This document shows, one piece after another, positions 7,276-44,468 of a stretch of 64,000 bases of DNA. The translations under genes were made by a program, and so were the position numbers. The stretch lies in contig NZ_JACCCW010000001.1 in NCBI RefSeq assembly GCF_013410065.1, positions 310,001-374,000 of the forward strand, given 5' to 3'. The stretch comes from Granulicella arctica. Lineage in GTDB: Bacteria > Acidobacteriota > Terriglobia > Terriglobales > Acidobacteriaceae. The notes beneath the pieces are model-generated. The model was given only the letters and a program-made list of their open reading frames with translations, did not search any database and was not told the origin of the DNA. Numbering within the stretch: position 1 is the first letter of the stretch; each line of letters opens with the position of its first letter.

Positions 7276-7349
7276 TATAGGCGTTTTGTTGACGGTAAAG
7301 GACTTATGAGTCGGTACAGTCGGCCAAAACGGCCCAATCGCCGCTAAAT

Positions 7350-19307: not shown

Positions 19308-19393
19308 GATGCCCTCCTTTGGGCGTGGTTGTGCTGTGAGGTTGTAGAGCGAACACGCTTCCCTGTCTCCGCTCCGGTGGGCGGGAACCTGGG

Positions 19394-19810: not shown

Positions 19811-20727
19811 TACGCCACCCGCGCCAGTTCTGCATCGGGCATCGTCTCTGTAGTTGCGGACGGTTCCAATGCGGCAAGGATGACAGCGGAGGTCTGCTGC
19901 ACCACTTCAAGCGATTCCACCAGCAACGAAGCGTTGCCATGGTAGAGCGCGATATACGAGGCACTGGCATTGCCTGTCTGTAAACCAATTGCCTTGCCGA
20001 CAACGAAGGCGATAGCCTCGGCCTCCGTCTCCCGTACCGTCTTGGTGGTCGTCGTGCGGCGGGTGGAGTGCATCAGGAGTTCGTGTGCCAACTCATGCAC
20101 CAGCGTGGCGAAGGTTTCGGCCTTCGACTGTCCGGGCAGGATGGCGATGCGCCCGCCATAGCTCACACCAAGCGCGGGCGCGATCTTCTCGGTAAAGACA
20201 AGCTCGATGCCCTCCTTTTCAATGAATGCCAGAAGACGGTCGTAGTTCTCGCCCGCATCGCCCTGAACGTGTTCGATCTGGGGAAGGTCGGGGCCATCTG
20301 TTTGCTCCACATCAAAGACATAGGCATTCCTGAATCCAACAAGGACGCGAGTATTCTGCTTGGTGATGTCCTTCTCTACCTCTTCATCGTTCTTGCGCTT
20401 GAAGCCGATGATGGGAGCAAGAATGCGGATGCCCTTCTCGCCTTTCTTCACGCGGCGGCCAAGCTGGTTCCATGCGTACATACCTGCCACGCGCGTTGCT
20501 CCGGGGCGTTGTCTGGCGATCTCCAACACATTGCCAAAGGAATACGAACGAAAACGGCTCATCGCGTTGAGGTACGCGGTGAGTGCATCTGAGTGTCCGG
20601 CCTCTAGCTGCTCGATGAGGCTCTTTATGTTGGCGGCGATGATCTCCTTTGCGGTCTGCCGTTGCTGCGGCTGTTTGGGGTTTTGAGTAGACGGGGTGAC
20701 GGTGGGGGTGGTGGCTACGCTGTTCAT
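19810..20727 (-). CDS. ardC: ArdC-like antirestriction protein with zincin metallopeptidase domain
   Basis: 305 aa. Residues 20-110 are the ArdC ssDNA-binding N-terminal domain (LTAYLNAMSRFRSYSFGNVL, GMYAWNQLGRRVKKGEKGIRI). The C-terminal part is an ImmA/IrrE-like zincin with the zinc motif HELAHELLMH and downstream glutamates (ETEAEAIAFVVG). ArdC proteins enter recipients with or soon after conjugation and protect the incoming DNA from restriction. It is the first gene of a minus-strand operon and has a palindrome 35 nt upstream that may be its operator. Complete. Confidence 0.85.
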   Translation of the reverse strand: MNSVATTPTVTPSTQNPKQPQQRQTAKEIIAANIKSLIEQLEAGHSDALTAYLNAMSRFRSYSFGNVLEIARQRPGATRVAGMYAWNQLGRRVKKGEKGIRILAPIIGFKRKNDEEVEKDITKQNTRVLVGFRNAYVFDVEQTDGPDLPQIEHVQGDAGENYDRLLAFIEKEGIELVFTEKIAPALGVSYGGRIAILPGQSKAETFATLVHELAHELLMHSTRRTTTTKTVRETEAEAIAFVVGKAIGLQTGNASASYIALYHGNASLLVESLEVVQQTSAVILAALEPSATTETMPDAELARVA

Positions 20728-21496: not shown

Positions 21497-23053
21497 GTGT
21501 ATCGGCAGATCCCCCGTACCGAGATTCTTGACGCGCTTGCTCATCTACGCGAGTTGCATCGGCAGGTCAGGCCGTCCAACGACCGTGAGCGCTATGCCTT
21601 CGAACGCCGCGAGCTGGTCACAAAGAACCTGTTCTCGAACCTGCGTCGTACAGGAGACCATCCCACACTGAGCATGTTGCTTGAGATCGCGGATATGTTC
21701 TCGTTGACGATCGAAGGCGCGCATCGGCTGTTTGGATACGATCTGGGCGGGATTCGAGAATACGATTTCCGATTGAACGGTGGACGAACCCATATCGTCG
21801 AGTCCTATGCCTTCGAGCGTGATCTTCTGGTGGATTTGCCTCTGGAACTGGCTTCTTCCGAGGCGTTCGCGTCGGACGGCACGCTTCGGGAACTGGTACG
21901 GAGCTGGCAGCGCGACGTTCCCATGCGCGCGTTGAAAGGTCCGGCTTGGCGCCGTCCAGGAGCTTTTTATGTACATGTCGGCACGGAGGACAGCCTGGGG
22001 TCGAGCCTGCCTCCGGGGGCGATGGCTCTTGTCGAGCCGATTGAGGAGGAAGAGGCGCGGCAGCCCAATCCTCGATCCATCTATCTGCTTCAATTCGGAA
22101 ACGGATATCGCTGTAGTCGATGCGTGGTCTCACGAGGAAGGCTACAGCTATTGAACGCGGAGCGATCCTATTCCGGCCCGCAGGAGTTTGCCTATCCAAA
22201 GTCGGTACGGATTGCTGGCCGCATCCGCATGTTTGCTGTCCCGTTGCCGCTGCCCGAGTATTCCCAACTTTCATTCACCCGCTATGAGGGCAACGCCGAA
22301 CTCGTTCTTCCCTGGGAACATCGCACGCGGGACCAATTGCTCGCCGCCAAGCACAAACGGTTTCGTCGATCGCAGGACGAGGAACAGCATGTTCGAGAGT
22401 TCCTTCAAGCGGAGTTGCACACGAAATTCAGTGATCGTACCTGGCGGCGCTATCGCAGTCCTGGCCCATCTGAACCGCATGTCCCAGCCCTTCTGCACCT
22501 GACCTTGACGCACTTCGCACGTTACACGGACTCTCTTCAGGCTGGCGGATACATGATCCGAGACTCAAGCCGTTTTTCGCTCGAAACTCTGCTTACGGCG
22601 AAGCACTATGGCGAGCTATTGACCCCGCGCCCGACGGCGAGCGTTCCCATGCCGACGGAGGTGTGGGAGACGAGACGGAGTGAATTCGTCGAGTGGCCGC
22701 CCTTGCTGGCTGTGAAGTTTCCGCAACTGCGTCTTTGGGATGACCGCGTGATTCGACTGGCTCAGGGGAGCCCGATCCGGGGTCTGCATCCGCAAATCGC
22801 ACCTGGCTCCTGGATGCTTCTGGAGAAGCTGACGGGGATTCCCGACACGCGGAGTGATGGAAGCAAGAAGGGGTGGTCGCGACCCCTCTATGTCTTCCGC
22901 AGAGGGGTCGAGATTCTTTGCGGCTACCTCGAACGAGAGGGAAACCGTTTCGCGTTGTTGTCCAGCAACGACGAGGGGAGCGCGAAGGTGACCTTCCACC
23001 CGGACGGACTTCGCGATGTAAGCCGTGTCTGCGGCGTCGCGGTTCCCATTTAG
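21497..23053 (+). CDS. Putative HTH regulator with two S24/LexA-like domains, beside the lasso cluster
   Basis: 518 aa starting at GTG, with AGAGGAGA 6 nt upstream. Residues 1-85 look like a helix-turn-helix region (FSNLRRTGDHPTLSMLLEIA then FSLTIEGAHRLFGYDL). Two later blocks (about 160-255 and 420-515) resemble S24-like peptidase folds as in LexA/CI repressors: PPGAMALVEPIEEEEARQPN and GLHPQIAPGSWMLLEKLTGI. I see no clear Ser-Lys dyad, so they probably sense or dimerise rather than self-cleave. The gene lies immediately upstream of the lasso biosynthesis operon and of a pair of TTTGGCCAAA palindromes, which makes it the best candidate for the regulator of the peptide genes. Exact family not recognised. 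Confidence 0.55.
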   Translation: MYRQIPRTEILDALAHLRELHRQVRPSNDRERYAFERRELVTKNLFSNLRRTGDHPTLSMLLEIADMFSLTIEGAHRLFGYDLGGIREYDFRLNGGRTHIVESYAFERDLLVDLPLELASSEAFASDGTLRELVRSWQRDVPMRALKGPAWRRPGAFYVHVGTEDSLGSSLPPGAMALVEPIEEEEARQPNPRSIYLLQFGNGYRCSRCVVSRGRLQLLNAERSYSGPQEFAYPKSVRIAGRIRMFAVPLPLPEYSQLSFTRYEGNAELVLPWEHRTRDQLLAAKHKRFRRSQDEEQHVREFLQAELHTKFSDRTWRRYRSPGPSEPHVPALLHLTLTHFARYTDSLQAGGYMIRDSSRFSLETLLTAKHYGELLTPRPTASVPMPTEVWETRRSEFVEWPPLLAVKFPQLRLWDDRVIRLAQGSPIRGLHPQIAPGSWMLLEKLTGIPDTRSDGSKKGWSRPLYVFRRGVEILCGYLEREGNRFALLSSNDEGSAKVTFHPDGLRDVSRVCGVAVPI

Positions 23054-23083
23054 GCATCGCAAAACGCTCAACGTGACCACACC

Positions 23084-23182
23084 GTAAGTTTGGCCAAAAC
23101 AGGCTGTCTCTCTGCACAGAGAACGCGGCAATTGGTGCGTGTAAGTCTTGCTCTCTCATGACTCGAAGTAAGTTTGGCCAAA
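23084..23182. promoter_or_regulatory. Pair of GTAAGTTTGGCCAAA operator-like repeats
   Basis: GTAAGTTTGGCCAAA occurs at 23084-23098 and 23168-23182. Each contains the perfect palindrome TTTGGCCAAA. The copies are 84 bp apart, eight helical turns, so a protein could bind both on the same face and loop the DNA. They precede the lasso operon start by about 90 and 175 bp. Confidence 0.6.
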
Positions 23183-23274
23183 CAGCCAGTTTCCGATTGC
23201 AAGGCGAACCCGCAGGGGTAAGCTCGACTTCACCGCTGCTCTCGACGCAGCCCTAACAGTCGTGAGGAGAACTC

Positions 23275-23529
23275 ATGGTCACCGGCAACTCCCATCTTCG
23301 AACCATCGTGAACGAAGATGGTGCGGCTGTAATGGATACGAAGCGAGGAACCATCTCGACGTTGAATGCGACCGGAGCATACATCTGGCAAGCGTTGGAG
23401 AGGGGCGAGCGTGAAGAGGACATCGTTGAGGGACTCGCTCGGGAAACAAGCTCGCTACCGGACGCAATCCGGCAGGATGTGAGCGACTTTATTGCGGCAT
23501 TGCAAGAGCACAGGATGTTGTCGCGCTGA
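23275..23529 (+). CDS. Lasso peptide B1 protein, PqqD-like leader-binding (RRE) protein
   Basis: 84-aa winged-helix protein of the PqqD/RiPP recognition element type: an N-terminal beta sheet (LRTIVNEDGAAVMDTKRGTI), the signature LNATGAYIWQALERG and a helical C-terminus (DVSDFIAALQEHRML). B1 proteins bind the YxxP motif of the lasso leader and present the precursor to the B2 protease. Start at 23275 follows GTGAGGAG by 4 nt. It is the first gene of a compact operon with the kinase, B2, the cyclase and the precursor. Standalone B1 means this is a split-B system. Confidence 0.88.
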   Translation: MVTGNSHLRTIVNEDGAAVMDTKRGTISTLNATGAYIWQALERGEREEDIVEGLARETSSLPDAIRQDVSDFIAALQEHRMLSR

Positions 23530-23547
23530 CAATGCGGAGAGAACAGG

Positions 23548-24918
23548 ATGCAAACAGAACTGAATCTGGACACCGTAGAGTACCGCGTTGTACTGGTCGA
23601 TCCCATATCGCGAGGAGCTCTGGCGCGGGACGAGGAGAAATCCGCTCGCGTCTTGCGTGTCTCTATTCCACTGAGGGCGCGGGCGGTGCGGCAGGTGCGG
23701 ACGGAGCTACAACGCTCTTGGGGTATCGCGGTTGTGATTCTGGATTTCTTGTCTGCCGGTAACAACGTTTCCCCATGTGTCGTCGCGGAACTCCTGGCGA
23801 CGAGCATTCCGGCGGGCTTTCGTGTGGTGTCTGCGGGGGAGATTGCGAGCGAAGAACTTGCCGAGCAGGAGCGCACACACCTGAACAGGGTGCTTGGGGA
23901 TGACGTTACGAGTCCTTTCTCCCGCATTGGCTGGATTGACGAAGCGATTGCCTGGGTAGAGGGTGCAACGGGCCAGCGGCTTCGTTCCAAGACATCCGTT
24001 GAACAGTTCAGCGCGGGCGGAGCCTTCACGCTGCTGCGGTTTCCAATGGCAGATGGATGCAGCTATTGGCTCAAAGCGACTGGCGTTCCAAACGCCAACG
24101 AGCGAACACTTACGGCTCTGTTGTCGAGCCTCTGCGGAAACTGCCTTCCTCGTTTCGTGGCGGAGAAGGTCGATTGGAATGCCTGGTTGATGATGGAAGA
24201 GGCTTGTGGCATTTCGGTTCTGCCTACGGAACCGGACGATCTGGTGCGTTTGCTTGGGCAGGCGGTGGAGTCTCTCGCGGAGCTTCAACTCAAGACAGTT
24301 GGATTCGATCAAGTGTTGATCGACGCGGGGGCCTTCGACCAACGCTTGCATGTCTTACGAACGGATGCGGACTTGCTCTTTGCGTATGTGGCCGAGGCGA
24401 TGTCCTTTCAGACCTCGACCAAAGTGCCGCGTATCGAGACGAGTAGGCTGCAAGCAATCCGCAAACTGTTTGAGGAGGCGTGCCGCCGTGCCGAGTGTTT
24501 TGAGATGCCGCCCACCATCTTGCATGGCGACATGAACCTGGGCAACCTTGTCTTTGCAAGGTCGCGCTGCCAGTTCATCGACTGGTGCGAAGGATACGTC
24601 GGACATCCGTTCATCACCTTCCAACACCTTCTGCTTCTGAACCCTATAGAGAATCCAACCGTCCGGGCATCGGTGAACGACGTGTTGAAAGGCATCTACC
24701 GGACTGCCATGCGCCCGTTATGTGATTCCCGCCAGATGGAAGAGGGGCTTGCGTCTATGCCCCTTATTGCTGCCGCATCTTCCCTCTATGGACGGGGCGA
24801 CTGGCTGCGCAGCGACGCACGGAATGCTTTGCTCCGCTACGAGTATGCGCGGACTATTGGCCGACACATGGATCATGCAGCACGGGAGCCGACGCTGTTA
24901 GAGGCGCTGTGTGTTTGA
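23548..24918 (+). CDS. APH-fold kinase encoded inside the lasso operon
   Basis: 456 aa. The C-terminal two-thirds is an aminoglycoside-phosphotransferase-type kinase: the catalytic loop HGDMNLGN starts at His326 with Asp328 as base and Asn333 as metal ligand, and the DFG-equivalent aspartate is Asp345 in FIDWCEGY. The first 130 residues form a separate domain I cannot identify (LQRSWGIAVVILDFLSAGNN). The gene sits 18 nt after B1 and 33 nt before B2, so it is part of the biosynthetic operon. Known lasso kinases (PadeK, ThcoK) are HPr-kinase-like; an APH-type enzyme here could phosphorylate the peptide or precursor, or provide self-immunity. Substrate is inferred only from position. Confidence 0.72.
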   Translation: MQTELNLDTVEYRVVLVDPISRGALARDEEKSARVLRVSIPLRARAVRQVRTELQRSWGIAVVILDFLSAGNNVSPCVVAELLATSIPAGFRVVSAGEIASEELAEQERTHLNRVLGDDVTSPFSRIGWIDEAIAWVEGATGQRLRSKTSVEQFSAGGAFTLLRFPMADGCSYWLKATGVPNANERTLTALLSSLCGNCLPRFVAEKVDWNAWLMMEEACGISVLPTEPDDLVRLLGQAVESLAELQLKTVGFDQVLIDAGAFDQRLHVLRTDADLLFAYVAEAMSFQTSTKVPRIETSRLQAIRKLFEEACRRAECFEMPPTILHGDMNLGNLVFARSRCQFIDWCEGYVGHPFITFQHLLLLNPIENPTVRASVNDVLKGIYRTAMRPLCDSRQMEEGLASMPLIAAASSLYGRGDWLRSDARNALLRYEYARTIGRHMDHAAREPTLLEALCV

Positions 24919-24951
24919 TGTGGGGAGCGTGATAGTACGACGGGGAGACCT

Positions 24952-25326
24952 ATGAAGCGACGCGTTCTGGAAAGCTGGCTACTGCTGCTCTACTTCGACT
25001 GGCTCATGCGCTTCCGAGGATTTTCGCGTGTCCACGCCGTCGTGCGTGAACAAGAAATTCGACCGAGAGCAACAAGGCTGGCAGAAGCGGAAGATTTGTC
25101 TCATGCAACGGATCTCGCGTGCGTCTTCTACTTCAAACGAGTTCTATGCCTACAGCGTTCAGCCGCATTGGCGGTTTTGCTGCGGCGTCACGGTCGGAGC
25201 GCAGAGATGGTGATTGGGGCGCAACTGTTTCCTTTCCTATCCCACGCATGGGTTGAGGTGGAAGGCCGGGTTATCAACGACAAGCCCTCTGTGACCCAAC
25301 TGTTTCAGGTGTTGGAGCGCTGCTGA
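24952..25326 (+). CDS. Lasso peptide B2 protein, transglutaminase-like leader peptidase
   Basis: 124-aa cysteine protease of the lasso B2 family, with the catalytic triad in order: Cys66 in VLCLQRSAALAVLLRRHG, His98 in FLSHAWVEVEG and Asp110 in VINDKPSV. It removes the leader from the precursor in an ATP-independent step that needs B1. A short hydrophobic N-terminus (LESWLLLLYFDWLMRF) is normal for the family. It is separated from the cyclase gene by 11 nt. Complete. Confidence 0.88.
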   Translation: MKRRVLESWLLLLYFDWLMRFRGFSRVHAVVREQEIRPRATRLAEAEDLSHATDLACVFYFKRVLCLQRSAALAVLLRRHGRSAEMVIGAQLFPFLSHAWVEVEGRVINDKPSVTQLFQVLERC

Positions 25327-25337
25327 GCGAGGTCACG

Positions 25338-27224
25338 ATGAGCATACTTTTTGGGCAGTTGGAAGAACGGGGTGCCGTGGCGACCGAAGCGGCGTTGCGC
25401 CGACTCTCGCGTGCGACAGAACGTTACGCGACAGAGCCGAGTGCGTTCTATATCAGCGAAAGATTGGGTATGGGCTTCCAACCCTACGTGAGCCACGAGC
25501 GTTCCGCGACGAATGTGAGTTCTGCTGTGGACATTTACGGCAACGCCCTGAGCTTTGATGGCCGCCTGGACAACTATCGAGAGCTTGCAGCGGAACTAGG
25601 GGTTGACGCTTCCAACGCAACGGATTCGCGCCTTGTTCTTGCCGCATTCCACCGTTGGGGGGAGGACTGCTTCCGACGCTTGACCGGGGATTGGGCGCTC
25701 GTGCTATGGGCACCGAGCCATGAACTGCTGTATCTGGCCAGAGACCACGCGGGGGCTCGAACGCTCCATTTTAGGATCGACGGCGACGCGGTTGAATGGG
25801 GCACCTATCTCGATACATTCCTAGCGGAGAATGCAGGCTTGGCGATTTCAAAGTCCTATGTCGCTTGCTACCTCAGTGGTATCCAGCTACGAAATCTCAC
25901 TCCCTATGACTCGATCATGTCCGTGCCGCCCGCTCACTACGTCATCGTCGGAGGGGGTCAAGTCAGAACGAGAGCGCATTGGTCTGCCGCGCAGATTGCG
26001 GAGGCCACCTGCAAATCGGACAAGGATTACGAAGACTCGTTTCTCGCTCTGCTCAAACAATCAGTCCGACGCCGTGCCAACGCCACAGAGACCGTTCTTG
26101 CCGAACTGAGCGGCGGCATAGATTCGACCGCCATCGTCTGTGTGTCGGATAGCCTGCGCCGATCCGAGCAGGCAGGTGCAGCATTGGTTGATACAGTCTC
26201 CTACTGCGACGATGCAGAGCTATCGCTCGATGACAAAAGGTATTTCTCGATCGCGGAGACAGAGAGGGGCAAAGTCGGCACCCATCTGGACATGGCCATT
26301 TCGCAGAGAACGTTCCTGCCGCACAGCTCCGCCAAGGGACGCTACCTCGTTCCCGGTGCTGACAGCTTATCTATCACTCGCGAAGAACAGTTTTTTCAAG
26401 CCGTCTGGTCCAAGGGGTATCGCAGCCTCCTTTCCGGGATTGGAGGAGACGAGCTGCTAGGCGGTGTTCCTGATCCAAAGCCAGAGCTTGCCGACTATTT
26501 AGTTTCTCGCGATATACGCAATTTCCTTCGGCAGTGCTTTGCGTGGTCGCTGATCGACAGAAGCCCGATGATAGAAACTCTCTGGGGCTCAGTCGCCCAT
26601 GTTGCCCGACTCTATCGCACGTCTTCCTCTTCATCGACCGTACCGTTCTGGCTGTCTCCAACTCTGACCGAGTGTGCACAAGCGACAGGGCGGGGATACG
26701 CATTAAGGCAGAGATCGACTTATACTCCTCGACAGTTGAGCGATGAAGGCACATGGTGGTCGGTCATGGAGACGTTGCCGCACCTGTTTCCACGAATTGT
26801 TGCACGACCTGAATATCGGTATCCGTACTTGGATAAAGATCTTGTGAACTTCCTGATGGCGATTCCCCGAGAGCAACTGTTGCGTCCGAATCGTCGCCGA
26901 TCCTTGATGCGGCGCGCGTTAGCGGGCATCGTCCCGCACGAGGTGCTGGAAAGGAAAGCAAAGGCGTTTCAGCTTCGTGGCGTGCTACACGCTCTTCAAA
27001 GAGCCCGACCGTCGCTCGAAGGACTCTTTCAACAATCTCGCCTCGTTGAGGAGGGTTGCATCGACCCTGACTTGTTCCGATCCGCTTTCAGGAAAGCGTG
27101 CGAGGGAGAGGCTTCCCACACGCGTACTTTGATTCGAACCATCGCGATGGAACTTTGGTTGCAGTCGGAGAAGACTGCGCTGGGAGCGAGGACGACGCCG
27201 TTCACTCTGGGTTCGGCCGCATGA
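25338..27224 (+). CDS. Lasso peptide cyclase, asparagine-synthase-like (protein C)
   Basis: 628-aa homologue of asparagine synthetase B. The N-terminal glutaminase-like half lacks the catalytic Cys2 (it begins MSILFGQLEE), as expected for a cyclase that does not hydrolyse glutamine. The synthetase half has the PP-loop ELSGGIDSTAIV (Ser258 to Ser263) that binds ATP. In lasso biosynthesis this enzyme adenylates the side-chain carboxylate of Asp or Glu in the core and joins it to the new N-terminus to close the ring. The start has GAGG 5 nt upstream. The precursor gene follows 80 nt downstream, an unusual order as precursor genes mostly come first. Confidence 0.9.
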   Translation: MSILFGQLEERGAVATEAALRRLSRATERYATEPSAFYISERLGMGFQPYVSHERSATNVSSAVDIYGNALSFDGRLDNYRELAAELGVDASNATDSRLVLAAFHRWGEDCFRRLTGDWALVLWAPSHELLYLARDHAGARTLHFRIDGDAVEWGTYLDTFLAENAGLAISKSYVACYLSGIQLRNLTPYDSIMSVPPAHYVIVGGGQVRTRAHWSAAQIAEATCKSDKDYEDSFLALLKQSVRRRANATETVLAELSGGIDSTAIVCVSDSLRRSEQAGAALVDTVSYCDDAELSLDDKRYFSIAETERGKVGTHLDMAISQRTFLPHSSAKGRYLVPGADSLSITREEQFFQAVWSKGYRSLLSGIGGDELLGGVPDPKPELADYLVSRDIRNFLRQCFAWSLIDRSPMIETLWGSVAHVARLYRTSSSSSTVPFWLSPTLTECAQATGRGYALRQRSTYTPRQLSDEGTWWSVMETLPHLFPRIVARPEYRYPYLDKDLVNFLMAIPREQLLRPNRRRSLMRRALAGIVPHEVLERKAKAFQLRGVLHALQRARPSLEGLFQQSRLVEEGCIDPDLFRSAFRKACEGEASHTRTLIRTIAMELWLQSEKTALGARTTPFTLGSAA

Positions 27225-27227
27225 TTG

Positions 27228-27261
27228 GCGGCCTTCAAGTTCCGCCGGTACAGCCTGTACG
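27228..27261 (+). promoter_or_regulatory. Two small intercistronic hairpins before the precursor gene
   Basis: GGCGG-ccttcaagtt-CCGCC (27228-27247) and GTACA-GCC-TGTAC (27249-27261) lie between the cyclase stop and the precursor start, ahead of AAGGAGA at 27291. They could protect or separate a precursor-only transcript after processing, giving more peptide than enzyme. Inferred from sequence alone. Confidence 0.35.
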
Positions 27262-27304
27262 TTGGACTGCGCTTACGGAAATTTCAACACCAAGGAGAAA
27301 TACT

Positions 27305-27439
27305 ATGAGCTACACCAAACCGAGCATCATCGCCACGCATGCAGCCCTCTCCGTCGTTAAGAGCGACAAGGGGGATCTCGTATTCGAGTCCAACCAGATT
27401 CAACTCACCTCGGGTGCGGCCTATCAGTCTGCTGAATAG
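27305..27439 (+). CDS. Lasso peptide precursor (protein A)
   Basis: 44-aa peptide with a strong AAGGAGA ribosome-binding site. The leader carries Y3-T-K-P6, the YxxP motif read by B1 proteins. In fusilassin the leader tyrosine is 17 residues from the cleavage site; the same distance here puts cleavage after Lys19 and gives a core beginning SDKGDLVFE, in which Glu9 could bond to the Ser1 amine to make a 9-residue ring, with a 16-residue loop and tail ending AAYQSAE. Position -2 of the leader is Val18, close in shape to the usual Thr. An Ala13-Asp21 ring with Thr11 at -2 is also possible but leaves only 12 leader residues. The gene sits between cyclase and terminator. Confidence 0.75.
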   Translation: MSYTKPSIIATHAALSVVKSDKGDLVFESNQIQLTSGAAYQSAE

Positions 27440-27467
27440 GGCCGTACAAGACTTGGCAATTTCCTTC

Positions 27468-27522
27468 CCAGCCTTGCCCTCTCCGGAAGCTGTTTTTCCG
27501 GCGGGGGCAAGGCTGGATTTTT
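27468..27522 (+). terminator. Strong rho-independent terminator of the lasso operon
   Basis: Outer stem CCAGCCTTGCCC / GGGCAAGGCTGG (12 perfect bp) with an inner CCGGA/TCCGG stem, followed by ATTTTT. It starts 28 nt after the precursor stop and separates the operon from the convergent isopeptidase gene. Confidence 0.85.
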
Positions 27523-27554
27523 GGGTTCGGTTGTTGCGAACGGTTCGTAAAGCA

Positions 27555-29918
27555 CTAGCGACTCGCCTGGGTCTTCATTGCCTCCCACTGTTCGTACCGG
27601 GCACGCTTCGCTGGATCGGAGTCCTCTTCGCCTTTCAACCAGAATCTAAACCAGTCCACGTTGCCCTGTTGTGATTCAAGTCGTTCCAAGGGGCGCTGGT
27701 GGATATGCGTACCTGATGGGAAATAGATCAAATCGACTGGCTTTTGTTGCAATCGTAAGGAGGAATACAGTTCCCACTCCTGCAATACGGATGGCGGCCC
27801 AATCGCTTCGATGCGAACAGGCGTTCGTATTCGGTCCAGGTTGAATCCCGGAGCTACGTCAGTCCATTGCCGGAGCGAGTTGCCTACAGGACTATGCCCA
27901 CGAACCTTATCCATCTGCTTCTGTAACGGATAGAACTCGACTGCGAAGAGCATGTATTGCATGTAGCTGTTGTCCAACCCGTCGGCGATGGTCGCTGCCG
28001 CAAAGAGGCTTGGCATCTTAATCAGCGCATTGATGGCGTACCAGCAGGTTAAGCTGAAGCCAACGACACCAACCCTCTTGCGATCTACTAAGCCGTCATT
28101 GGATAGCGTTTCAATGGCGCTGACATAGGCTTCGAGATGAATTTGAGGATCTTGTTCAGAAACCGTATCGGGTTGCTTCTTGATCTGGAGCACGACGAAT
28201 CCGGCATCTGCGAGATGACGGGCCGCGAAGGCAGTGGGATAGAGCCCGTCGGTCACAAACTCTCCGGCGTTGTAGCTGTAGAGTTGGATGACAAGCGGGT
28301 ATCGCACTCCCGGCGTGTAGTTGACCGGCTTGATGAGAATGCCGGACCAGGCACGGTCGTCCTTATCCTTCCATTGATAAAGCGACGCTTGTCCGAACTG
28401 CATCTGGTGAAGTTGTGGGTTCGGGTTCCACAACTCGCGTTCGTGACCATGGTTGTCGCTGGCCCAAATCGTAGGCGGCTCATTCAGACCCTGACGGACG
28501 AACAGCTTTAGACTGTCTTTCGCTGACTGGGCATCGTCGATGCCTCCTTCCAGCCCGTTCCTACTTATCTCCACCGAGGCAGTCGATAGCAAATCCCATC
28601 CGGTGTTCCGAAAGATATAGGTACGAATCAGTTGCCCTCCGATACTGGTGCGCAAAAGCACATTGATCTCGTTTGCCCGCTTTCCGTAGGCGATGTCTTG
28701 AAGGCGCGGGCTGTCTGATCGGCTCTTACCATCCTCAAAATAGAGGCAGCTCGGCTTTAGCGAGGCAATGTCAACAACTGCTGCGCCGCAGGGATGTCCA
28801 TCGGACGCATCACTATCGCCGGAAGCAACCGGGAGGAATGTGTTTGTGACCACGACCTGTTTGCCGTCAGGAGACCACGCAATTCGATTGCGGTCTGCCG
28901 TATAACCAAGGTTCCGAGCATTCGGTGCACGCAACAGTGCTTTCTCCGTCCCCGTTTTCAAGTCGATGAGGGTGTATTCGAGCGGTCTAAGAATGTTGTC
29001 CGCGCGGAGCCGCCGAGGATCGCTCGTGTCCGTGAGGCGAAGCTGCTCCGCACCGGGCGCAGGCGCGTAGGTGTTCCAGATTCCCGGTACAGACTGTGCG
29101 GGTTCGAGGTCAACGAGCGTTTGCGCGGTGGGGGAGGCGTTGAATGGATACAAAGCTGATAGAACGGGAATGTCCAGCAAGCTATAGTGCGGGACCAAGC
29201 GTATCGGCTGGCCCTTCCTGTCCACGTTCAACACGTAGATGTGAAACAGCGCTGGTTCCCGCGAGGCCAGGTCATCCGGAAAAAGTATTTCCTGTAAGCG
29301 TGCTCCCGTAAGATCTACCGCGTCACGATTGAGCGACTGCCCTGGATCGATCAAATGGGTAGCCGGGTCGCCGGCATTGAAGACGACAGTTCTTCCGATC
29401 ACGTCAAAATGGTTAACGCTTCTGTTGGGAGGGGTGAGATAGACAAGCTTGGTGGAGGTGACTCCAGCGGTACACAGTTGGTAGTTTCCGTGCATATTCT
29501 CGGCGCGGAAAAAGACGAGGGCGCTATCGGATGACCACCGAACATCTTTAATGACGGGGGCGTAAGCATTCATTTCGATGTGGTGCGGGTACGATTGAAC
29601 CGATGCGATCACCCGTGCCTTCGGTGAAGACATCGTTGGTGTGGAGAGAAAGTTCGATACGTCCCGAAGATCGAAGACCATGACTTGAGATTCAACAAGG
29701 TCCGTCTCCAACATGCCTCTCGTCGTGACGATTGCGACGAACCGGCCATTCGGGGACGGCCACGCGACTTCACTTCCGGGAACTGAAGGCTCGGCCAGAG
29801 GGGAACTTATCCGCCTCATGGCAATGTCGTCCGCCACAGTGAAGGCGTGTCGCTGGGCTTGGACGCAGGTTAGGTTAAGCGCCCCTAGAAGGGCGACTGC
29901 ATACAGGGGAAATCGCAT
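27555..29918 (-). CDS. AtxE2-like lasso peptide isopeptidase (S9 prolyl-oligopeptidase family)
   Basis: 787 aa with a signal peptide (MRFPLYAVALLGALNLTCVQA), a beta-propeller region and a C-terminal alpha/beta-hydrolase. The nucleophile is Ser622 in VGVVGFSLTCW and the catalytic histidine is His738 in SGTHIHQRP, a spacing like that of AtxE2. The aspartate expected at about residue 705 is not evident: the stretch reads AIGPPSVLQEWELYSSL. Such enzymes cut the isopeptide bond and linearise the imported lasso peptide. It converges on the biosynthetic operon and precedes no other gene; upstream lies the TonB receptor, as in proteobacterial isopeptidase-type lasso clusters. Confidence 0.8.
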   Translation of the reverse strand: MRFPLYAVALLGALNLTCVQAQRHAFTVADDIAMRRISSPLAEPSVPGSEVAWPSPNGRFVAIVTTRGMLETDLVESQVMVFDLRDVSNFLSTPTMSSPKARVIASVQSYPHHIEMNAYAPVIKDVRWSSDSALVFFRAENMHGNYQLCTAGVTSTKLVYLTPPNRSVNHFDVIGRTVVFNAGDPATHLIDPGQSLNRDAVDLTGARLQEILFPDDLASREPALFHIYVLNVDRKGQPIRLVPHYSLLDIPVLSALYPFNASPTAQTLVDLEPAQSVPGIWNTYAPAPGAEQLRLTDTSDPRRLRADNILRPLEYTLIDLKTGTEKALLRAPNARNLGYTADRNRIAWSPDGKQVVVTNTFLPVASGDSDASDGHPCGAAVVDIASLKPSCLYFEDGKSRSDSPRLQDIAYGKRANEINVLLRTSIGGQLIRTYIFRNTGWDLLSTASVEISRNGLEGGIDDAQSAKDSLKLFVRQGLNEPPTIWASDNHGHERELWNPNPQLHQMQFGQASLYQWKDKDDRAWSGILIKPVNYTPGVRYPLVIQLYSYNAGEFVTDGLYPTAFAARHLADAGFVVLQIKKQPDTVSEQDPQIHLEAYVSAIETLSNDGLVDRKRVGVVGFSLTCWYAINALIKMPSLFAAATIADGLDNSYMQYMLFAVEFYPLQKQMDKVRGHSPVGNSLRQWTDVAPGFNLDRIRTPVRIEAIGPPSVLQEWELYSSLRLQQKPVDLIYFPSGTHIHQRPLERLESQQGNVDWFRFWLKGEEDSDPAKRARYEQWEAMKTQASR

Positions 29919-29961
29919 GGAAGTGCTCCGATTCGACGGAAGGAAATGTGCCTGGAAAGGA

Positions 29962-32900
29962 CTAGAACGTTAGCCGGAGAGCAAACTGCATCGAGCGCGG
30001 GCCGCCTTGCTGATACTGAGAAGCCATTGTCCCGAGGCTGGCGTTGAGAGTTTGCGTTGCTTGCCCGAAGGTCGCGTCCGAATAGGTGGGGTCCACGTAG
30101 CCGAAGATCGGATGGTTCAAGAGGTTGAACGTCTCAGCACGAAAGTGCAGGGCGACTTCGTTATGTAGCGGGAAGTCCCGTCGCACAGAGAGGTTTACCT
30201 GAGTCGCTCCAAAACCGCGCGCGAAGTTGCGAGGCGCGTTCCCTTCTACCCCGGTTGTTGGGAGACTGAATGCTGCCGGATTGATGATTTTTCCGCCTGC
30301 ATACTGAGGACTGTAGAGGTAGATCGGGACGTTTGGGATGATATTCAGACCGCTGTTGTATTGAGCGCCTGTTGCGGGATTGGTCTGGGTAGTCCCGCCA
30401 AGCGTGATCGGATAGGCGGTACGAGCAACCAGCCGCAAGTCCACTCCCCAGTTGTTGGCGAGAGTTGCAAGAGGTTTCGGCCCAGAGACGATTGGCAATT
30501 CCCAGCTCAATCCGCTCTGAAGATTGTGTCTCACATCGAAGTCTGCGTTGCCACGTTGCAGGGCAAGAGTTGCGGACTGGGAACCAAGGTCGATGGTATG
30601 CGACCACGTATAGGACGTGAGGACCTGAAGCCCTTTTGCGACCGAACGCTGGAATTGCACCTGGAGACCTTGATAATTTGATGTGACACCGGTCGCAAAG
30701 TATTGGATCAGCCCGAAATTCGGGTTGAGCGCCGAGATGGAGCGTTGCTGAAGCCCCATCAACCGCCGACCTGCCGCCGCGACATACGAGACCGTTAGAG
30801 ACTGACGGGCACCCAAGGCTTGCTGCAGGCTTACATTCCACTCCAAGGTATACGGTAGCTGTAAATGCTCCGGGTACGCCGTAACGACACCACTTGTATA
30901 CGGTGCTGTCGTCCCGATAGGAACGTTCAATTGCGCTGGAGTATAGGGCAGTTGTGCGCCGCTACGAAGTGCGGAAGCTCGGAACCCCAGACCGTTGAAT
31001 CCAACGGAGGCGATCTCGTTCGCGGAGTCGAAGAAGACTCCTCCTCCCGCACGAACGACTGTTTCTGCACCTGGCTTGTCGTGGGCTGTCCAAGCGATAC
31101 CCACGCGTGGAGCGAAGTTATACCAAGAGGTGTTCCATAGAGAGGTGCCACGCGGAGCTACTGTCAATGTTGAGGGCTGATTGATGTCACCACGCAGTGT
31201 GAAGGCATCGTCTCCATGTTGCTCGGTCGGGGGCGGATTGACTTCCCAGCGAAGGCCGTAGGAAAGGTGAAGCCGGGTCTGGATCTGCCACTCATCCTGG
31301 GCGTACAAGGCCAGTTGGTGAAAGAGAGGAGTGGACTGGAGGAAGGAAAATACGTAGGGGATGGACGGGTGGCCCGTGAGCACGCTGCTGGGCGTCAAAA
31401 AGATTGCATACGGTTCGATTTGCGGTGGCGCAACCAACGACTTGATGTTCCGAAAGTCTACACCGAACCTGAAATGGTGGTTTCCGTTGAGAAGCGAAAC
31501 GGAATCGACAAGATTCCATTGCCTCCCGAGGTTACGGGAATTGTAGATTGCATAGAACGGGGCACCTATACCGGCGATGTTGATGTCGATAACAGGCACG
31601 ACTTGAGCATACGAACCGGCTCCCATAGCCGCGGATAGGTTAGTGGGTGTCGCTCCTCCGAAGCTGTCGCTTTCACTCATCTCGGACGAATTGGAGCGGG
31701 CATATCCGAGCCTAAACTCGTTGTTCCAGCGAGCGGAGAACATGCTGTTCGCGCCGAACGTGTACGTTTGAGCGTTGATTGCGGTGGTCGATCTTGCAAA
31801 ATACGGTCGCGAGTCCGTTGAGCTGGGCGTATCACCAACACGAAAGAAGATTGCCAATTTTGGATTTACGGTGTGATCGACTCTGACGCTGGTCGAGTTG
31901 ATGGTGCTTGGGAGGGAAAACGACTTGATGAACTGCGCGAGGCTCGGGCTGGAAGATGTCCCATAGTCGATCCCGTTCGGCACCGGAAAGGCATTGAGGA
32001 TGGGCTGCATCGCCGGAATCGCCTGTTGCCTCATGAAGATGTCGGGTACATACTGAATCGTCGCGGCGATCGGCTGTGTCAGGCGCAATCCCTCATAGGA
32101 TACGAAGAAGAAGGTGCGGTCGAGTCCGCTGTAGAGTTTTGGCAGTACAACGGGACCTCCGAATGTTCCCCCGAAGTCACTCTGGCGAAGCGCTGGGGTT
32201 GGCAGGCCGTAATGATCGTTGAACCAGTTGTTGGCGTCGAAGTAGTTGTTGCGAAGATATTCGTAGGCGCTGCCGTGGAGTTGATCGCTCCCAGAGCGCG
32301 TCGCCATCGAGAACTGGCCACCCGGCGAGCGTCCGAACTCTGCCGCATAAGTCGAGCTTTGGATGCGGAACTCTTGCAACGCGTCGACAGAAACCAATGT
32401 CTGGGTAGTTCCGAGTGCGGTCGTCGCTCCCAGGGCTCCTCCTGTTGATGCGGCCCCAGTACCGCCGCCATTGCCAGAGCTGATATTGGCGGTGACGCCA
32501 TCCACGGTGTAGTAGTTCGACTGGGCACGCTGTCCGTTGACACTGAAGTCTCCACCGCCGCCGACAATCTGGTTTTGCGCGTATTGAGGCGTCTGATTCA
32601 CCACGCCGGGCGCCAACGAGATGAGGTCTTGGAAACTCCGCCCGTTGAGGGGCATATTTTCGACGAACTTTCGATCCACCACCGTGCTGACCGATGCGTC
32701 TGTCGTATTGATAGCGGACGAGCCAGCGTCTACGGTGACGCTCTCAGAAGTCGCCCCCACTGGCAGAACGAAATTCAGCGCGACGGCACTTTGGACGTTC
32801 AAGACGAGATCGGCTTTGATGATGGTCTTGAATCCCGGCTTTGAGACCTGTACGTGGTAATGGCCGGGGGGCAGGATCGGAACGAGGTACATTCCTGAGC

Positions 32901-33078
32901 CGTTTGTTCTCGCCGAGTAAATCACCCCCGTTGCGTCGTTGGCGATCTCAACATCGGCATCCAGGATGAGTTTGCCCGCAACGTCCGTCACTCCGCCACT
33001 GATCGTGGCATTCGTAGATTGACAGAGAGCAACGGATGCGAAAAAACAGACACAAAGGAGGAGGAACCAGCATTTCAT
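29962..33078 (-). CDS. TonB-dependent receptor, Oar-like, probably for the lasso peptide
   Basis: 1038-aa outer-membrane receptor: signal peptide (MKCWFLLLCVCFFASVALCQ), carboxypeptidase-regulatory-like domain (ISGGVTDVAGKLILDADVEI), plug (NMPLNGRSFQDLISLAPGVV) and barrel ending QFALRLTF with terminal phenylalanine. It lies between the isopeptidase gene and an anti-sigma/ECF-sigma pair, the order known from astexin- and caulosegnin-type loci, where the receptor takes the lasso peptide back up. The glycine-rich plug segment (SSGNGGGTGAASTGGALGAT) is unusually long. Import of the peptide is inferred from context. Confidence 0.82.
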   Translation of the reverse strand: MKCWFLLLCVCFFASVALCQSTNATISGGVTDVAGKLILDADVEIANDATGVIYSARTNGSGMYLVPILPPGHYHVQVSKPGFKTIIKADLVLNVQSAVALNFVLPVGATSESVTVDAGSSAINTTDASVSTVVDRKFVENMPLNGRSFQDLISLAPGVVNQTPQYAQNQIVGGGGDFSVNGQRAQSNYYTVDGVTANISSGNGGGTGAASTGGALGATTALGTTQTLVSVDALQEFRIQSSTYAAEFGRSPGGQFSMATRSGSDQLHGSAYEYLRNNYFDANNWFNDHYGLPTPALRQSDFGGTFGGPVVLPKLYSGLDRTFFFVSYEGLRLTQPIAATIQYVPDIFMRQQAIPAMQPILNAFPVPNGIDYGTSSSPSLAQFIKSFSLPSTINSTSVRVDHTVNPKLAIFFRVGDTPSSTDSRPYFARSTTAINAQTYTFGANSMFSARWNNEFRLGYARSNSSEMSESDSFGGATPTNLSAAMGAGSYAQVVPVIDINIAGIGAPFYAIYNSRNLGRQWNLVDSVSLLNGNHHFRFGVDFRNIKSLVAPPQIEPYAIFLTPSSVLTGHPSIPYVFSFLQSTPLFHQLALYAQDEWQIQTRLHLSYGLRWEVNPPPTEQHGDDAFTLRGDINQPSTLTVAPRGTSLWNTSWYNFAPRVGIAWTAHDKPGAETVVRAGGGVFFDSANEIASVGFNGLGFRASALRSGAQLPYTPAQLNVPIGTTAPYTSGVVTAYPEHLQLPYTLEWNVSLQQALGARQSLTVSYVAAAGRRLMGLQQRSISALNPNFGLIQYFATGVTSNYQGLQVQFQRSVAKGLQVLTSYTWSHTIDLGSQSATLALQRGNADFDVRHNLQSGLSWELPIVSGPKPLATLANNWGVDLRLVARTAYPITLGGTTQTNPATGAQYNSGLNIIPNVPIYLYSPQYAGGKIINPAAFSLPTTGVEGNAPRNFARGFGATQVNLSVRRDFPLHNEVALHFRAETFNLLNHPIFGYVDPTYSDATFGQATQTLNASLGTMASQYQQGGPRSMQFALRLTF

Positions 33079-33183
33079 TGAGCAGCGCTCCGAAGAAGCA
33101 AAAGTGAATTGGGTACACTCCGTCTACGGCTGGCGGACCAAAGGTGTATCAATGCTTTTGCTTTTATTAAGGATGATTCAGCT

Positions 33184-34473
33184 TCAAGGATGATTCGGCT
33201 GAATCTGGAGGTACGCCCGGAGGAGCTGCTTGCCCGTGGGCTTGGCGCTCCCGCCTGGAGGCTCCACAGTCACAAACACCATGTTCATTCGCGCCAGGGT
33301 CTTCGCATCGTTGCACCGTAATACCCATCTCTTGTGGCTATCGTCCTGATAGAACAAGCCGAGGCTCGTCGCTTGCTTGTCACTGCCGCTTCCCCACGCC
33401 TGAAAAACAACCGATTCTTTTAGACCGGCTTGCTTTTCGAGATCGAACCCGTAGAACACCAAGGACCGATCCTTGGTGTAGAAGATGCGCCCGAATGGTT
33501 TCGCCGTTCTCCCGTTCTCGTTGGTGTCAAAGATGTCGGCGATGTACAGATTGCGCGCACCGATCAGGTCTCGGATGTCCCGGTCGTGCGCAAGAAAATC
33601 TTTGTCGAGAGATAGGATGCGGTCTTTATCACTCAGGGCTGTATTCGTTTCGTCGAGAGCGACATTGAGGTCGCGAACCTTGGCCTCAAGAGACGTGCTG
33701 CGTGCGGTCTGCTGATCTGCGTTTGCCTGAGTGGATGCGACTTTGTCACGGAGCGATTGAACATCTGCCTGCGCAGCGGCGAGCTGTTGGCTGAGGCTGT
33801 CTTTCTCTGAGGCAAGCTGCTGTTGTTGTGCGTGGTCGGCCTCAAGCTGATGTTGAAATGTCGGATCAGAAGACTTTGGTTGCGAAGCCCGGTCATTGGC
33901 AGCGGCTAGCTGCTGTTGCAGCTTCGCCACCTCCTGCTGTGCCCGCTCCACCGCCTGCCTCATATCCTCATTCGAGCCAGTGGCTGCTGTTGATGCCGAA
34001 GGCAGAACGGTAGAGACGCTCGGACTTGACGGGACCGGGGGGTGGGACTGTTGGCGGACCAGATGCACAGAGGCGAACGCAACGGCCACGAGAGCGCAGG
34101 CGGCGAGAGCCCCGCCAAGCACCCGCCACGACGGCTTCTGAGTCGCTGGGGGCTCCTTCGGAGAAGGCACGACACCCAACTGGCTCATCAGACGCCGCTC
34201 TGCTTCCGCGATGGCGCTCTCCGATTCCCTGGGCAGACTATTGAGTTCGGCAGCGGCGCTCGCCGCCATCGCCGGTATCACATTCGTCGTGACGTGCTTA
34301 TACTGCTCGAATGTGCTCTGGCAGGTGTCGCAGTATGCGAGGTGTACCTGCAGCAGCGACCACTCTTCGTCTGTGAGTTCCCCGGAATAGAAGAGTGCGA
34401 CCAGAGCAACGAACTCGTCATGAAATTGAGGGTTCACCGGCTCAGTTCCCTTGGGGTACAATTTGCCATCCAT
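33184..34473 (-). CDS. Anti-sigma factor, zinc-finger/transmembrane/coiled-coil with RskA-like C-terminus
   Basis: 429 aa. The N-terminus carries a zf-HC2-type anti-sigma domain (LLQVHLAYCDTCQSTFEQY); a single membrane helix follows at about 118-138 (VLGGALAACALVAVAFASVH). Residues 165-300 are a glutamine/alanine-rich coiled coil (QQEVAKLQQQLAAANDRA), and the rest resembles the periplasmic RskA domain (KPFGRIFYTKDRSLVFYGFD). It starts 9 nt after the sigma-factor gene and should hold that sigma factor at the membrane until a signal, perhaps receptor occupancy by the lasso peptide, releases it. A 15-bp sequence is duplicated at its very 3' end (33169-33200). Confidence 0.78.
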   Translation of the reverse strand: MDGKLYPKGTEPVNPQFHDEFVALVALFYSGELTDEEWSLLQVHLAYCDTCQSTFEQYKHVTTNVIPAMAASAAAELNSLPRESESAIAEAERRLMSQLGVVPSPKEPPATQKPSWRVLGGALAACALVAVAFASVHLVRQQSHPPVPSSPSVSTVLPSASTAATGSNEDMRQAVERAQQEVAKLQQQLAAANDRASQPKSSDPTFQHQLEADHAQQQQLASEKDSLSQQLAAAQADVQSLRDKVASTQANADQQTARSTSLEAKVRDLNVALDETNTALSDKDRILSLDKDFLAHDRDIRDLIGARNLYIADIFDTNENGRTAKPFGRIFYTKDRSLVFYGFDLEKQAGLKESVVFQAWGSGSDKQATSLGLFYQDDSHKRWVLRCNDAKTLARMNMVFVTVEPPGGSAKPTGKQLLRAYLQIQPNHP

Positions 34474-34482
34474 TCTCTCACC

Positions 34483-35151
34483 CTAGCCGCGCTTCTGGGG
34501 GAAGAGATGAGAACGCAGGCGGTCCAACGCCCGGTAATAGTGGTTCCTGACATTTCCGACCGTTTGCCCGTTTCTCTCCGCGATCTCGCGAAGACTATAC
34601 CCTTCGAAAAAGTGAAGTTCCAAAGTTTGCCGTTGCGCCGGGGTGAGTTGCTCTTTCAGGCGATCCCGAATCGCTTTCCCATCAAGTGCTTCTGGGGAAG
34701 GTTGTGCTGCCGTCGTGGGCATCCGCTGTTCGTCAAACTCTTCCGCCGTGTAGTGTTGTCGAAAATCCAGGTAGCGCCGCCGATCGATCGCACGATGGTA
34801 GGTCACTTGCATGATCCAGGAAGACCCGGAGCCCTTCTGGGCGTCGAAGTGTTGTGATCGCTCGGAAAGATACAGGAAAACTTCCTGGCGGAGGTCGTCC
34901 GCTTCAGATTCGTCTCTGAGGATTCGCCAAGCGACGTGGAAAACGGCGCGGGCATGTCGACGGAAAAGGAGTCCAAGTGCATCCTTAGATCCCACGCCGA
35001 CCTGCGAAAGCAACTGCTCGTCGCTTGGCTCAGACATGGAGAAATTACTCGCCGGATCGGCGTGCGAAAGACGCCTATCGTCCGCCCCCGCAGCAGCATC
35101 GGAGGCGTCGGCTAGTCCTTTTGGGAAGTAGGCGGCAGCTTCGGAACTCAT
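34483..35151 (-). CDS. ECF-type RNA polymerase sigma factor
   Basis: 222 aa with sigma region 2 (LGLLFRRHARAVFHVAWRIL, ADDLRQEVFLYL, WIMQVTYHRAIDRRR) and region 4 (LTPAQRQTLELHFFEGYSLR, EIAERNGQTVGNV). An ATG at 35151 has GAGG 6 nt upstream; an in-frame ATG at 35037 would remove a 38-residue disordered N-terminus. It is followed directly by its anti-sigma gene and then by the receptor and isopeptidase genes, all on the same strand, so it probably drives their expression. Its own promoter must lie between 35152 and 35306, where two copies of a palindromic operator are found. Confidence 0.86.
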   Translation of the reverse strand: MSSEAAAYFPKGLADASDAAAGADDRRLSHADPASNFSMSEPSDEQLLSQVGVGSKDALGLLFRRHARAVFHVAWRILRDESEADDLRQEVFLYLSERSQHFDAQKGSGSSWIMQVTYHRAIDRRRYLDFRQHYTAEEFDEQRMPTTAAQPSPEALDGKAIRDRLKEQLTPAQRQTLELHFFEGYSLREIAERNGQTVGNVRNHYYRALDRLRSHLFPQKRG

Positions 35152-35235
35152 AAGGCCTCATGCAGCTAGGAGAACGGAGTGGACAAAAACTCTGGAGGAT
35201 ACCGGCGTTGCCCGTGCGCACCTTCCGCACAATAA

Positions 35236-35273
35236 GCACTATAGTGCCAGCCTATGTAGGCACTATAGTGCCT
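35236..35273. promoter_or_regulatory. Two copies of the palindrome GGCACTATAGTGCC
   Basis: GCACTATAGTGC at 35236-35247 (flanks AA/CA) and a perfect AGGCACTATAGTGCCT at 35258-35273. Centres are 24 bp apart. They lie in the divergent interval between the ECF sigma gene and the first small Xre gene, so they could control both directions. Confidence 0.75.
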
Positions 35274-35306
35274 CTTAATTATGCCGTCAATGTCGACCAT
35301 GAAGGG

Positions 35307-35567
35307 GTGGCGGATTTCCAAAAACCGGAATCATTGACTCTGGAACAGGCAATCGGCCGGGTATTGCTCAATTTGCGTTCAGAAAGAGATCTCAACCAAG
35401 TTGATGTCGCAGTTGCAACCAACTTCGGTTTGAGGTCCATAAGAACGATGGAACATGGACTGCAAAGCATGACCATTCGGTCATTGGACGCGCTCGCGAT
35501 GTTCTATTCCATTCCTATTGAAGAGATCATTATCCGAGCGAAGTTATTACGCGATAAAACGCTGTAG
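35307..35567 (+). CDS. Small Xre-family HTH regulator
   Basis: 86-aa single-domain HTH protein (LTLEQAIGRVLLNLRSERDL, then NQVDVAVATNFGLRSIRTME). The GTG at 35307 is chosen because it matches the length of the paralogue 85 bp downstream and leaves the two upstream palindromes outside the coding region; the frame itself is open back to 35160. Likely a repressor that binds the repeated GGCACTATAGTGCC palindrome. Confidence 0.6.
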   Translation: MADFQKPESLTLEQAIGRVLLNLRSERDLNQVDVAVATNFGLRSIRTMEHGLQSMTIRSLDALAMFYSIPIEEIIIRAKLLRDKTL

Positions 35568-42855: not shown

Positions 42856-42884
42856 TTGACGTGCGTTTCGGTGAGGGTTAGGCT
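42856..42884 (+). promoter_or_regulatory. Putative promoter of the CBASS operon
   Basis: TTGACG (42856-42861), 17-bp spacer, TAGGCT (42879-42884), about 87 nt before the cyclase start. It lies in the shared intergenic region with the divergent Xre gene. Confidence 0.45.
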
Positions 42885-42970
42885 TGTCGTGTACCCGCAA
42901 CCCGTCTGCTGTAGACAACAGTACAACGGTGGCGCAGGAAAGGCAACCGGCAAAAGGAGAACCACCGACT

Positions 42971-43936: not shown

Positions 43937-43944
43937 GAGGCATC

Positions 43945-44466: not shown

Positions 44467-44468
44467 GG

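Follow-up and report, generated by a model that had tools for sequence, protein, structure and literature searches.

Isopeptidase-type lasso-peptide loci of proteobacteria, as outlined in the accessible text of PMC9266682, combine a TonB receptor with a sigma factor and an anti-sigma factor and carry a GntR-like regulator ahead of the precursor gene; isopeptidase genes themselves have been placed primarily in alpha-proteobacteria (available part of PMC13352647). Here we describe a lasso-type locus of comparable gene content in Granulicella arctica (Acidobacteriaceae), located on contig NZ_JACCCW010000001.1, positions 310,001 to 374,000 of the forward strand. This stretch of 64,000 nt is referred to as the window, and all coordinates are window positions. 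An earlier note on the same DNA had proposed a complete set of genes for synthesis, uptake and degradation of a lasso peptide; Pfam and NCBIfam domain scans bear this out, and the cluster and its reported gene order are confirmed after the corrections given below. The main new point is a spacing rule between a lysine and an acidic residue, accompanied by a C-terminal tag, in the precursors of this family, which amounts to a testable claim about the bond that would close the ring.

The synthesis genes occupy the forward strand: B1, a PqqD-like leader-binding protein of the RRE type (ribosomally synthesised peptide recognition element; 23275-23529; PF05402, 2.3e-15, 57 bits, above the cut-off); an APH-fold kinase with an additional N-terminal domain (23548-24918; PF01636 APH, above the cut-off); the leader peptidase B2 (24952-25326; NF033537, 2.8e-22, 79.5 bits against a cut-off of 33); an asparagine-synthetase-like lasso cyclase (25338-27224; PF00733 at 2.4e-36 and GATase, both above the cut-off); and a precursor of 44 aa (27305-27439), for which no family model was matched in the Pfam and NCBIfam scans. 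The best NCBIfam model of the cyclase was NF033535 (1.1e-62), with 212 bits and thus under the curated cut-off of 525. The remaining genes lie on the reverse strand. An AtxE2-like lasso isopeptidase (27555-29918) found its best NCBIfam model in the Atxe2 family, NF033523 (3.9e-49; 168 bits, below the cut-off of 400), and its top solved-structure match was AtxE2 (5txc, E 1.6e-18), with the Ser and His positions retained. It is followed by an Oar-type TonB-dependent receptor (29962-33078; PF25183, OMP_b-brl_4, and PF13620, CarboxypepD_reg), by an RskA-type anti-sigma factor with a coiled coil (33184-34473; PF10099, RskA_C, above the cut-off; PF13490, zf-HC2, below it) and by an extracytoplasmic function (ECF) sigma factor (34483-35151; PF04542 and PF08281). 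Two details of the earlier note had to be revised. It had B1 starting at 21497, where a 518-aa S24-like regulator is encoded instead (21497-23053, forward strand; a weak PF00717 match below the cut-off), which is also found near the cluster in part of the relatives. It had also called the sigma pair FecI-FecR-like, and no FecR or STN domain appeared in a Pfam scan of the two proteins with E up to 0.1. Adjoining the sigma gene is a 135-aa open reading frame (ORF; 35160-35567, forward strand) with no Pfam match and with a similar ORF at that place in 4 of 55 other loci.

The window locus resembles the astexin, sphingopyxin and benenodin types, as far as these are covered by the accessible text of PMC9266682, in its cyclase, its isopeptidase (related to AtxE2), its TonB receptor, its sigma/anti-sigma pair and the lack of an ABC exporter among the cluster genes. 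It differs from them in the Oar-type receptor, in having an ECF sigma factor with an RskA-type anti-sigma factor instead of a FecI/FecR pair, in an extra APH-fold kinase, in an S24-like regulator ahead of B1 in place of the GntR-like one, in separate B1 and B2 genes, and in the lysine-acid rule and the AYEADE-like tag described below. By analogy, the locus would work like the proteobacterial isopeptidase-type loci, and we do not file it as a member of the AtxE2 type. Two further loci stand close to it. The bsf locus of Bradymonas sediminis (accessible part of PMC10368454) shares the Ile/Val at -2, the Y(-17)/P(-14) spacing, a kinase and separate B1 and B2 genes, but its kinase is distantly related to HPr kinase, its ring is given as G1-D8, it has an ABC transporter and its peptide is phosphorylated on Ser3; in that part of the paper a lysine rule is not mentioned. 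The biosynthetic gene cluster (BGC) 482.1, from a soil-metagenome fosmid with acidobacterial best matches, shows the same order, with B1, an aminoglycoside phosphotransferase labelled as kinase, B2, C, A1 and A2 and then a 2118-bp ORF (available text of PMC9064862), so that the gene set as such is not new in print. Its ring was read as glycine to aspartate, and the same text describes no receptor, sigma genes or mobility.

The window precursor consists of the leader MSYTKPSIIATHAALSVVK and the predicted core SDKGDLVFESNQIQLTSGAAYQSAE, in which K3 and E9 are found. Its leader has Y3, P6 and V18, that is, the Y(-17)xxP(-14) motif with valine at -2 instead of the usual threonine. In BsfA, with the same spacing, cleavage was shown with Ile(-2), Val(-2) being only predicted, and the presence of Ile/Val(-2) in Acidobacteriaceae had already been noted (PMC10368454, accessible part). 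The family was examined through 97 non-redundant precursors, 47 derived from loci and 50 from a separate protein search, the first core residue being predicted 17 residues downstream of the YxxP tyrosine. For the first set, ORFs of up to 60 aa were kept if they had a Shine-Dalgarno-like stretch and, close to their start, a YxxP-like motif, and four distinct sequences were removed by residue -2, which gave 68 rows. One of the four, from locus L105, was restored by hand, a second L073 precursor was lost to the Shine-Dalgarno filter, and none was found for L087. The canonical loci L031, L032 and L034-L037, the degenerate L088, the outgroups L103 and L104 and a short L098 artefact were left out before counting, which gave 54 precursors, or 47 after removal of near-duplicates. 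The protein search returned 111 matches, one of them without the motif, and the rest of those outside the 50 were near-duplicates. Five precursors from public collections (P0034, P0046, P0047, P0074 and P0083) are 84-100% identical to that of the window. Across the 97 precursors, alanine at -6 (94), isoleucine or valine at -2 (96) and glycine or serine at +1 (82) are strongly conserved (2.5 to 4.1 bits). From 3 before to 5 after the lysine, every position stays at or below 1.2 bits. Since positions fixed from YxxP are conserved and those around the lysine are weak, the cut site appears to be set by the tyrosine and not by the lysine.

A lysine with an aspartate or glutamate at +6 or +7 is present in 94 of the 97 precursors. 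The spacing is obeyed by 45 of the 47 locus-derived sequences (5000 shuffles: mean 7.3, maximum 17) and by 49 of the 50 from the protein search (2000 shuffles: mean 7.0, maximum 15), and every other spacing from +1 to +12 falls inside the range of its shuffles in both sets. The three exceptions are L023 and P0080 (both +8) and L084 (+5), so in all 97 the lysine is followed by an acid somewhere at +5 to +8. The lysine itself occupies core positions 3 to 10, never 1 or 2, and the acid positions 9 to 17. An acid at the classical core positions 7-9 is found in just 28 of the 97, the window with its E9 among them. Precursors such as P0069 and that of L095 (both K7-D13) or that of L086 (K8-D14) offer no acid for a 7-9 ring from the N-terminus. 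As a control, 11 precursors of six canonical acidobacterial loci gave the opposite picture, with an acid at 7-9 in all 11 and the lysine rule in none; the two canonical precursors of L033, whose precursors had been sought downstream of the wrong cyclase, are not part of this control. Because an acid at 7-9 is rare while the lysine-acid spacing is nearly constant, and because the canonical control shows the reverse, the position of the acid tracks the lysine and not the cut site. In locus L105 (genome G736), the cores of three precursors contain cysteines and nevertheless obey the rule; the locus also has two kinase-like ORFs.

These spacings suggest that the ring is closed on the lysine, most likely through its epsilon-amine. 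A ring from the epsilon-amine to the acid at +6 or +7 would count 26, 27, 29 or 30 atoms in the 94 precursors, the classical D8-E9 rings having 25-29; a ring from the alpha-amine of the lysine after trimming would have 22-26 atoms in the same 94, and one from the predicted N-terminus to the acid following the lysine would span 9-17 residues and 28-52 atoms. Four points favour the epsilon-amine: these ring sizes, a cut site that is fixed, sequence preferences around the lysine that are weak, and the lack of lysine at positions 1 and 2. For the window itself the case is drawn from its cyclase, which sits in a clade with variable overhangs (33 rows, lysine at positions 3 to 9) in a tree made by a quick method, which leaves 22 of its 52 inner branches open and from which L088 was omitted as too short. 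We infer the following course: B1 would bind the leader via YxxP, B2 would cut after V(-2)-K(-1), in line with the cleavage shown for BsfA and its I(-2), and the cyclase would activate the side chain of E9 and join it to the conserved K3, most likely to its epsilon-amine. The product would be a lariat linked from side chain to side chain, with an N-terminus that stays free as a short overhang and a tail that carries the conserved acidic tag at its end. The precursor is probably the substrate of the APH-fold kinase, with the conserved tyrosine or Ser/Thr of the C-terminal tag as candidate sites; the Oar-type receptor would import the product, the isopeptidase would linearise it after import, and the ECF/anti-sigma pair would tune expression. 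That the window holds an element-borne lasso-type locus with E9 joined to K3, and with kinase, import, linearisation and sigma control acting as proposed, is a reading for which we see the chances as evenly balanced. Lactams between the side chains of lysine and Asp/Glu are made in graspetides, by ATP-grasp ligases and not by asparagine-synthetase-like cyclases; the proposed product would be like them in its side-chain-to-side-chain lactam and would differ in the class of enzyme. Within lasso peptides, lariocidin B ('class V', available text of PMC12427821) has an isopeptide on a lysine epsilon-amine, but in that peptide K2 forms the bond with the C-terminal R17, on top of a normal ring. A literature search that covered few subscription papers, several sources being accessible in part, returned no lasso ring closed on lysine and no acidobacterial conjugative element bearing a lasso locus.

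Several observations weigh against closure on the epsilon-amine. The window core allows a classical S1-E9 ring, and the same holds for the 7 further K3/E9 loci in its clade of 8 rows; K4-E9 of L084 is better suited to a classical 9-residue ring, and L023 and P0080 require a spacing of +8. The outgroups L103 and L104, in which no kinase was hit, pair K3 with classical possibilities, K3-E9 being accompanied by a possible G1-E9 ring in one case and K3 by D8, for a G1-D8 ring, in the other. Trimming down to the lysine by another peptidase would let its alpha-amine serve, with rings of 22-26 atoms in 94 of the 97 precursors, and overhangs tend to be longer in loci with a prolyl oligopeptidase gene (30 vs 17 precursors, Mann-Whitney p = 0.011, uncorrected for phylogeny). 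The rule was tested on the same first set in which it had already been noticed by eye, the second set was chosen by a profile that includes the lysine and acid columns, and the shuffles take no account of shared ancestry. Finally, we know of no product of this lasso family.

Should the locus make an ordinary lasso peptide, the alpha-amine of S1 would close on E9 and K3 would be conserved for another reason, for instance recognition by the cyclase. This suits the window together with its K3/E9 clade mates, L084 fits as well, and the canonical outgroups of the same phylum do so (11 of 11). We nevertheless hold it to be rather unlikely, as only 28 of 97 precursors across the family have an acid at 7-9, and closing on the acid after the lysine would demand anything from 9 to 17 residues (28-52 atoms) although the lysine-acid distance is nearly constant. 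It is likewise unlikely that the lysine becomes residue 1, a second peptidase stripping the overhang after the B2 cut so that the alpha-amine closes on an acid at 7 or 8 and a classical lasso results. The spacings +6 and +7 do correspond to ring sizes of 7 and 8, and in many loci, where the lysine lies further in, a prolyl oligopeptidase gene stands between the kinase and B2. Such an enzyme could do the trimming, but neither the window nor any of the 7 other loci in the clade has its gene, and the overhang is still present in all of them; besides, the sequence preference ahead of the lysine is not strong, none of the 97 precursors has the lysine at position 1 or 2, and 66 of the 97 rings would have 22-23 atoms, that is, 7 residues, a size that is rare among lasso peptides. 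The remaining alternative, that no ring is made or that it lies elsewhere, such as in the last eight residues (GAAYQSAE in the window, G1 to E8), draws on a tag as conserved as the key positions of the leader (Y 95/97, last E 95/97) and on the same want of a product known to us, but is very improbable, as residue 1 of this octapeptide (position -8) fits in the window but is unconserved in the relatives (1.4 bits) and the lysine rule would be left without a reason.

Beside the lysine-acid pair, the precursors share an AYEADE-like C-terminal tag, with tyrosine at -5 in 95 of the 97, an acid at -2 in 93, glutamate at -1 in 95 and threonine or serine at -9 in 79; in the window it reads AAYQSAE, with alanine at -2. 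Candidate roles of the tag are those of a kinase target, receptor recognition and export. In a 49-row alignment of the kinases, K176, E185, H326, D328, N333 and D345 are invariant; we take these to have the roles that such residues play in active APH-type kinases, and the kinase appears to retain the residues expected of one. Its structure model (predicted local distance difference test, pLDDT, 90.9) has its best fold match in MphH, and the top matches are macrolide phosphotransferases, the first five with template modelling (TM) scores by query of 0.41-0.44 and 15-16% identity. Known lasso kinases have homology to HPr kinase, whereas that of the window is APH in family and fold, and HPr kinase was not among its Pfam, NCBIfam or PDB-sequence results or the 50 fold matches shown. 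With the window counted, a strong match to the kinase profile (E 1e-39 or better) was found in 44 of 56 loci; the match was weak in two (L034 and L036) and missing in ten, one of which (L079) is cut by a contig end. Loci L094 and L096 carry the tag and the lysine spacing without a kinase match in the stretch examined, so the tag and the kinase do not always go together, and the kinase does not suffice to explain the tyrosine tag.

The earlier note had further proposed that the cluster is cargo of a tRNA-bounded element carrying a type IV secretion system, and the anatomy of the region supports this. An att-like repeat at 7220-7276 reproduces exactly 57 bp from the 3' part of tRNA-Ala(GGC), and its second copy lies at the tRNA-Ala(GGC) gene itself, outside the window (68171-68227 in window numbering). 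The 64-kb window contains no tRNA gene, the bounding tRNA-Ala being ~4.2 kb beyond its right end. The element between the repeats (7277-68170) thus runs past the window end at 64000 and includes, also outside the window, an integrase beside the tRNA-Ala (66817-68166). ParB-like and ArdC-like genes lie left of the cluster (17613-20727, reverse strand; PF02195 and PF08401), and a TrwC relaxase, a TrwB coupling protein and VirB11/8/6/10/9/4 are encoded at 46986-63967 (reverse strand). Judged from these genes and ends, this is an integrative conjugative element, with an integrase, att-like tRNA repeats, a relaxase, a coupling protein and a type IV secretion system, and its anatomy supports the view that the cluster could move between hosts. 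The region also has a cyclic-oligonucleotide-based antiphage signalling system (CBASS) operon at 42884-46945, with an oligonucleotide cyclase, a TRIP13-like ATPase and a SAVED-PDDEXK-type endonuclease effector (PADLOC models), and a 1387-aa ORF (10616-14779) with an AAA_22 match and an N-terminal match to LmuA (Lamassu). Left of the repeat, at 6930-7118, a fragment resembles by eye the C-terminus of a further tyrosine integrase, perhaps the relic of an older element.

Clusters in five other genomes lie amid similar element genes: among relaxase, coupling protein, VirB, ArdC and ParB genes in G434, G573 and G599, with relaxase, coupling protein, ParB, integrase and tRNA-Ala(GGC) in G733, and with ArdC, integrase and tRNA-Ala(GGC) in G651. 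In G573 the cluster lies between the copies of a tRNA-Val repeat, at least 60 bp long, the sole integrase match being ~2 kb outside the repeat; the same repeat script found no att-like repeats for the tRNA-Ala of G651 and G733. Of the 68 lasso genomes found, 35 were searched for a full TrwC gene; one lay no more than ~75 kb from the cluster in 6 of them and in none of the other 29. Such elements are thus not a fixed setting of the cluster. VirB11-like ATPase matches (35-39% identity) occur a few kb from the lasso cluster in L024, L025 and L083 and may belong to an element or to a pilus. Empty sites were sought in 10 genomes of the same genus. The right flank of the element is conserved in 39 of 41 genomes searched, but the heparinase-like gene left of the repeat was found at E <= 1e-80 in 1 of 41, that is, in the genome of the window only, so the right flank alone could be used. 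There, tRNA-Ala is present in 8 of the 10 genomes, with an integrase match beside it in four, a partial one ~8 kb off in one and none in three, and in none of these eight was a cyclase matched. The case that would have spoken against cargo, a cluster at the same site in relatives without the element, was thus not seen at these eight tRNA-Ala sites.

Loci of this type are common among the Acidobacteriaceae. A cyclase (E <= 1e-40) was found in 60 of 398 genomes of the family sample and in 18 of 396 of the phylum sample, the genome of the window being counted in both. Gene order was mapped in 20-kb stretches for 15 + 40 of the loci with cyclase matches, hence for 55 loci outside the window. The cyclase is forward and the isopeptidase and receptor reversed in 46 of these 55, the other nine being L031-L036, L072, L088 and L105; as it recurs in this way, the arrangement is not due to chance. 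The 'isopeptidases' of four of the 46 (L094, L096, L097 and L103) resemble other S9/hydrolase proteins at the active-site motifs. The extra prolyl oligopeptidase gene seen in many loci has matches to PF02897 and PF00326 in its L025 copy. A gene-pattern search of genome contigs for related loci matched 10 stretches, none of which was confirmed. Locus L088 (G494) is degenerate, with a broken cyclase, a shortened kinase match, no adjacent isopeptidase match and a precursor without the acidic end. Near the G573 cluster lies a second isopeptidase-TonB receptor pair (L117, G573:C3:974052-979575) with no synthesis genes detected adjacent to it, possibly for uptake only, and a second Transglut_core3 (B2-like) match, in a 272-aa frame, occurs elsewhere in the genome of the window (L042, G000:C1:873237-873545).

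That the Acidobacteriaceae make a separate class of lasso-type peptides, in which an asparagine-synthetase-like cyclase joins a lysine epsilon-amine to Asp/Glu 6-7 residues on, leaving a free N-terminal overhang and two free ends, in which the leader cut no longer sets the ring size and a conserved C-terminal acidic tyrosine tag, probably a signal for phosphorylation or for recognition by the receptor, is present, and whose whole unit for synthesis, import and degradation can travel on conjugative elements, is quite possible but in our view short of probable. If the lysine rule has the meaning that it seems to have, ring closure in this group would be uncoupled from the N-terminus, and both the product range of lasso cyclases and the targets of genome mining would widen, as a search requiring an acid at 7-9 leaves 69 of the 97 precursors fitting no classical ring. 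Since production, uptake, degradation and regulation are found together on one mobile element, the locus offers a handle on the purpose that isopeptidase-type lasso peptides may serve.

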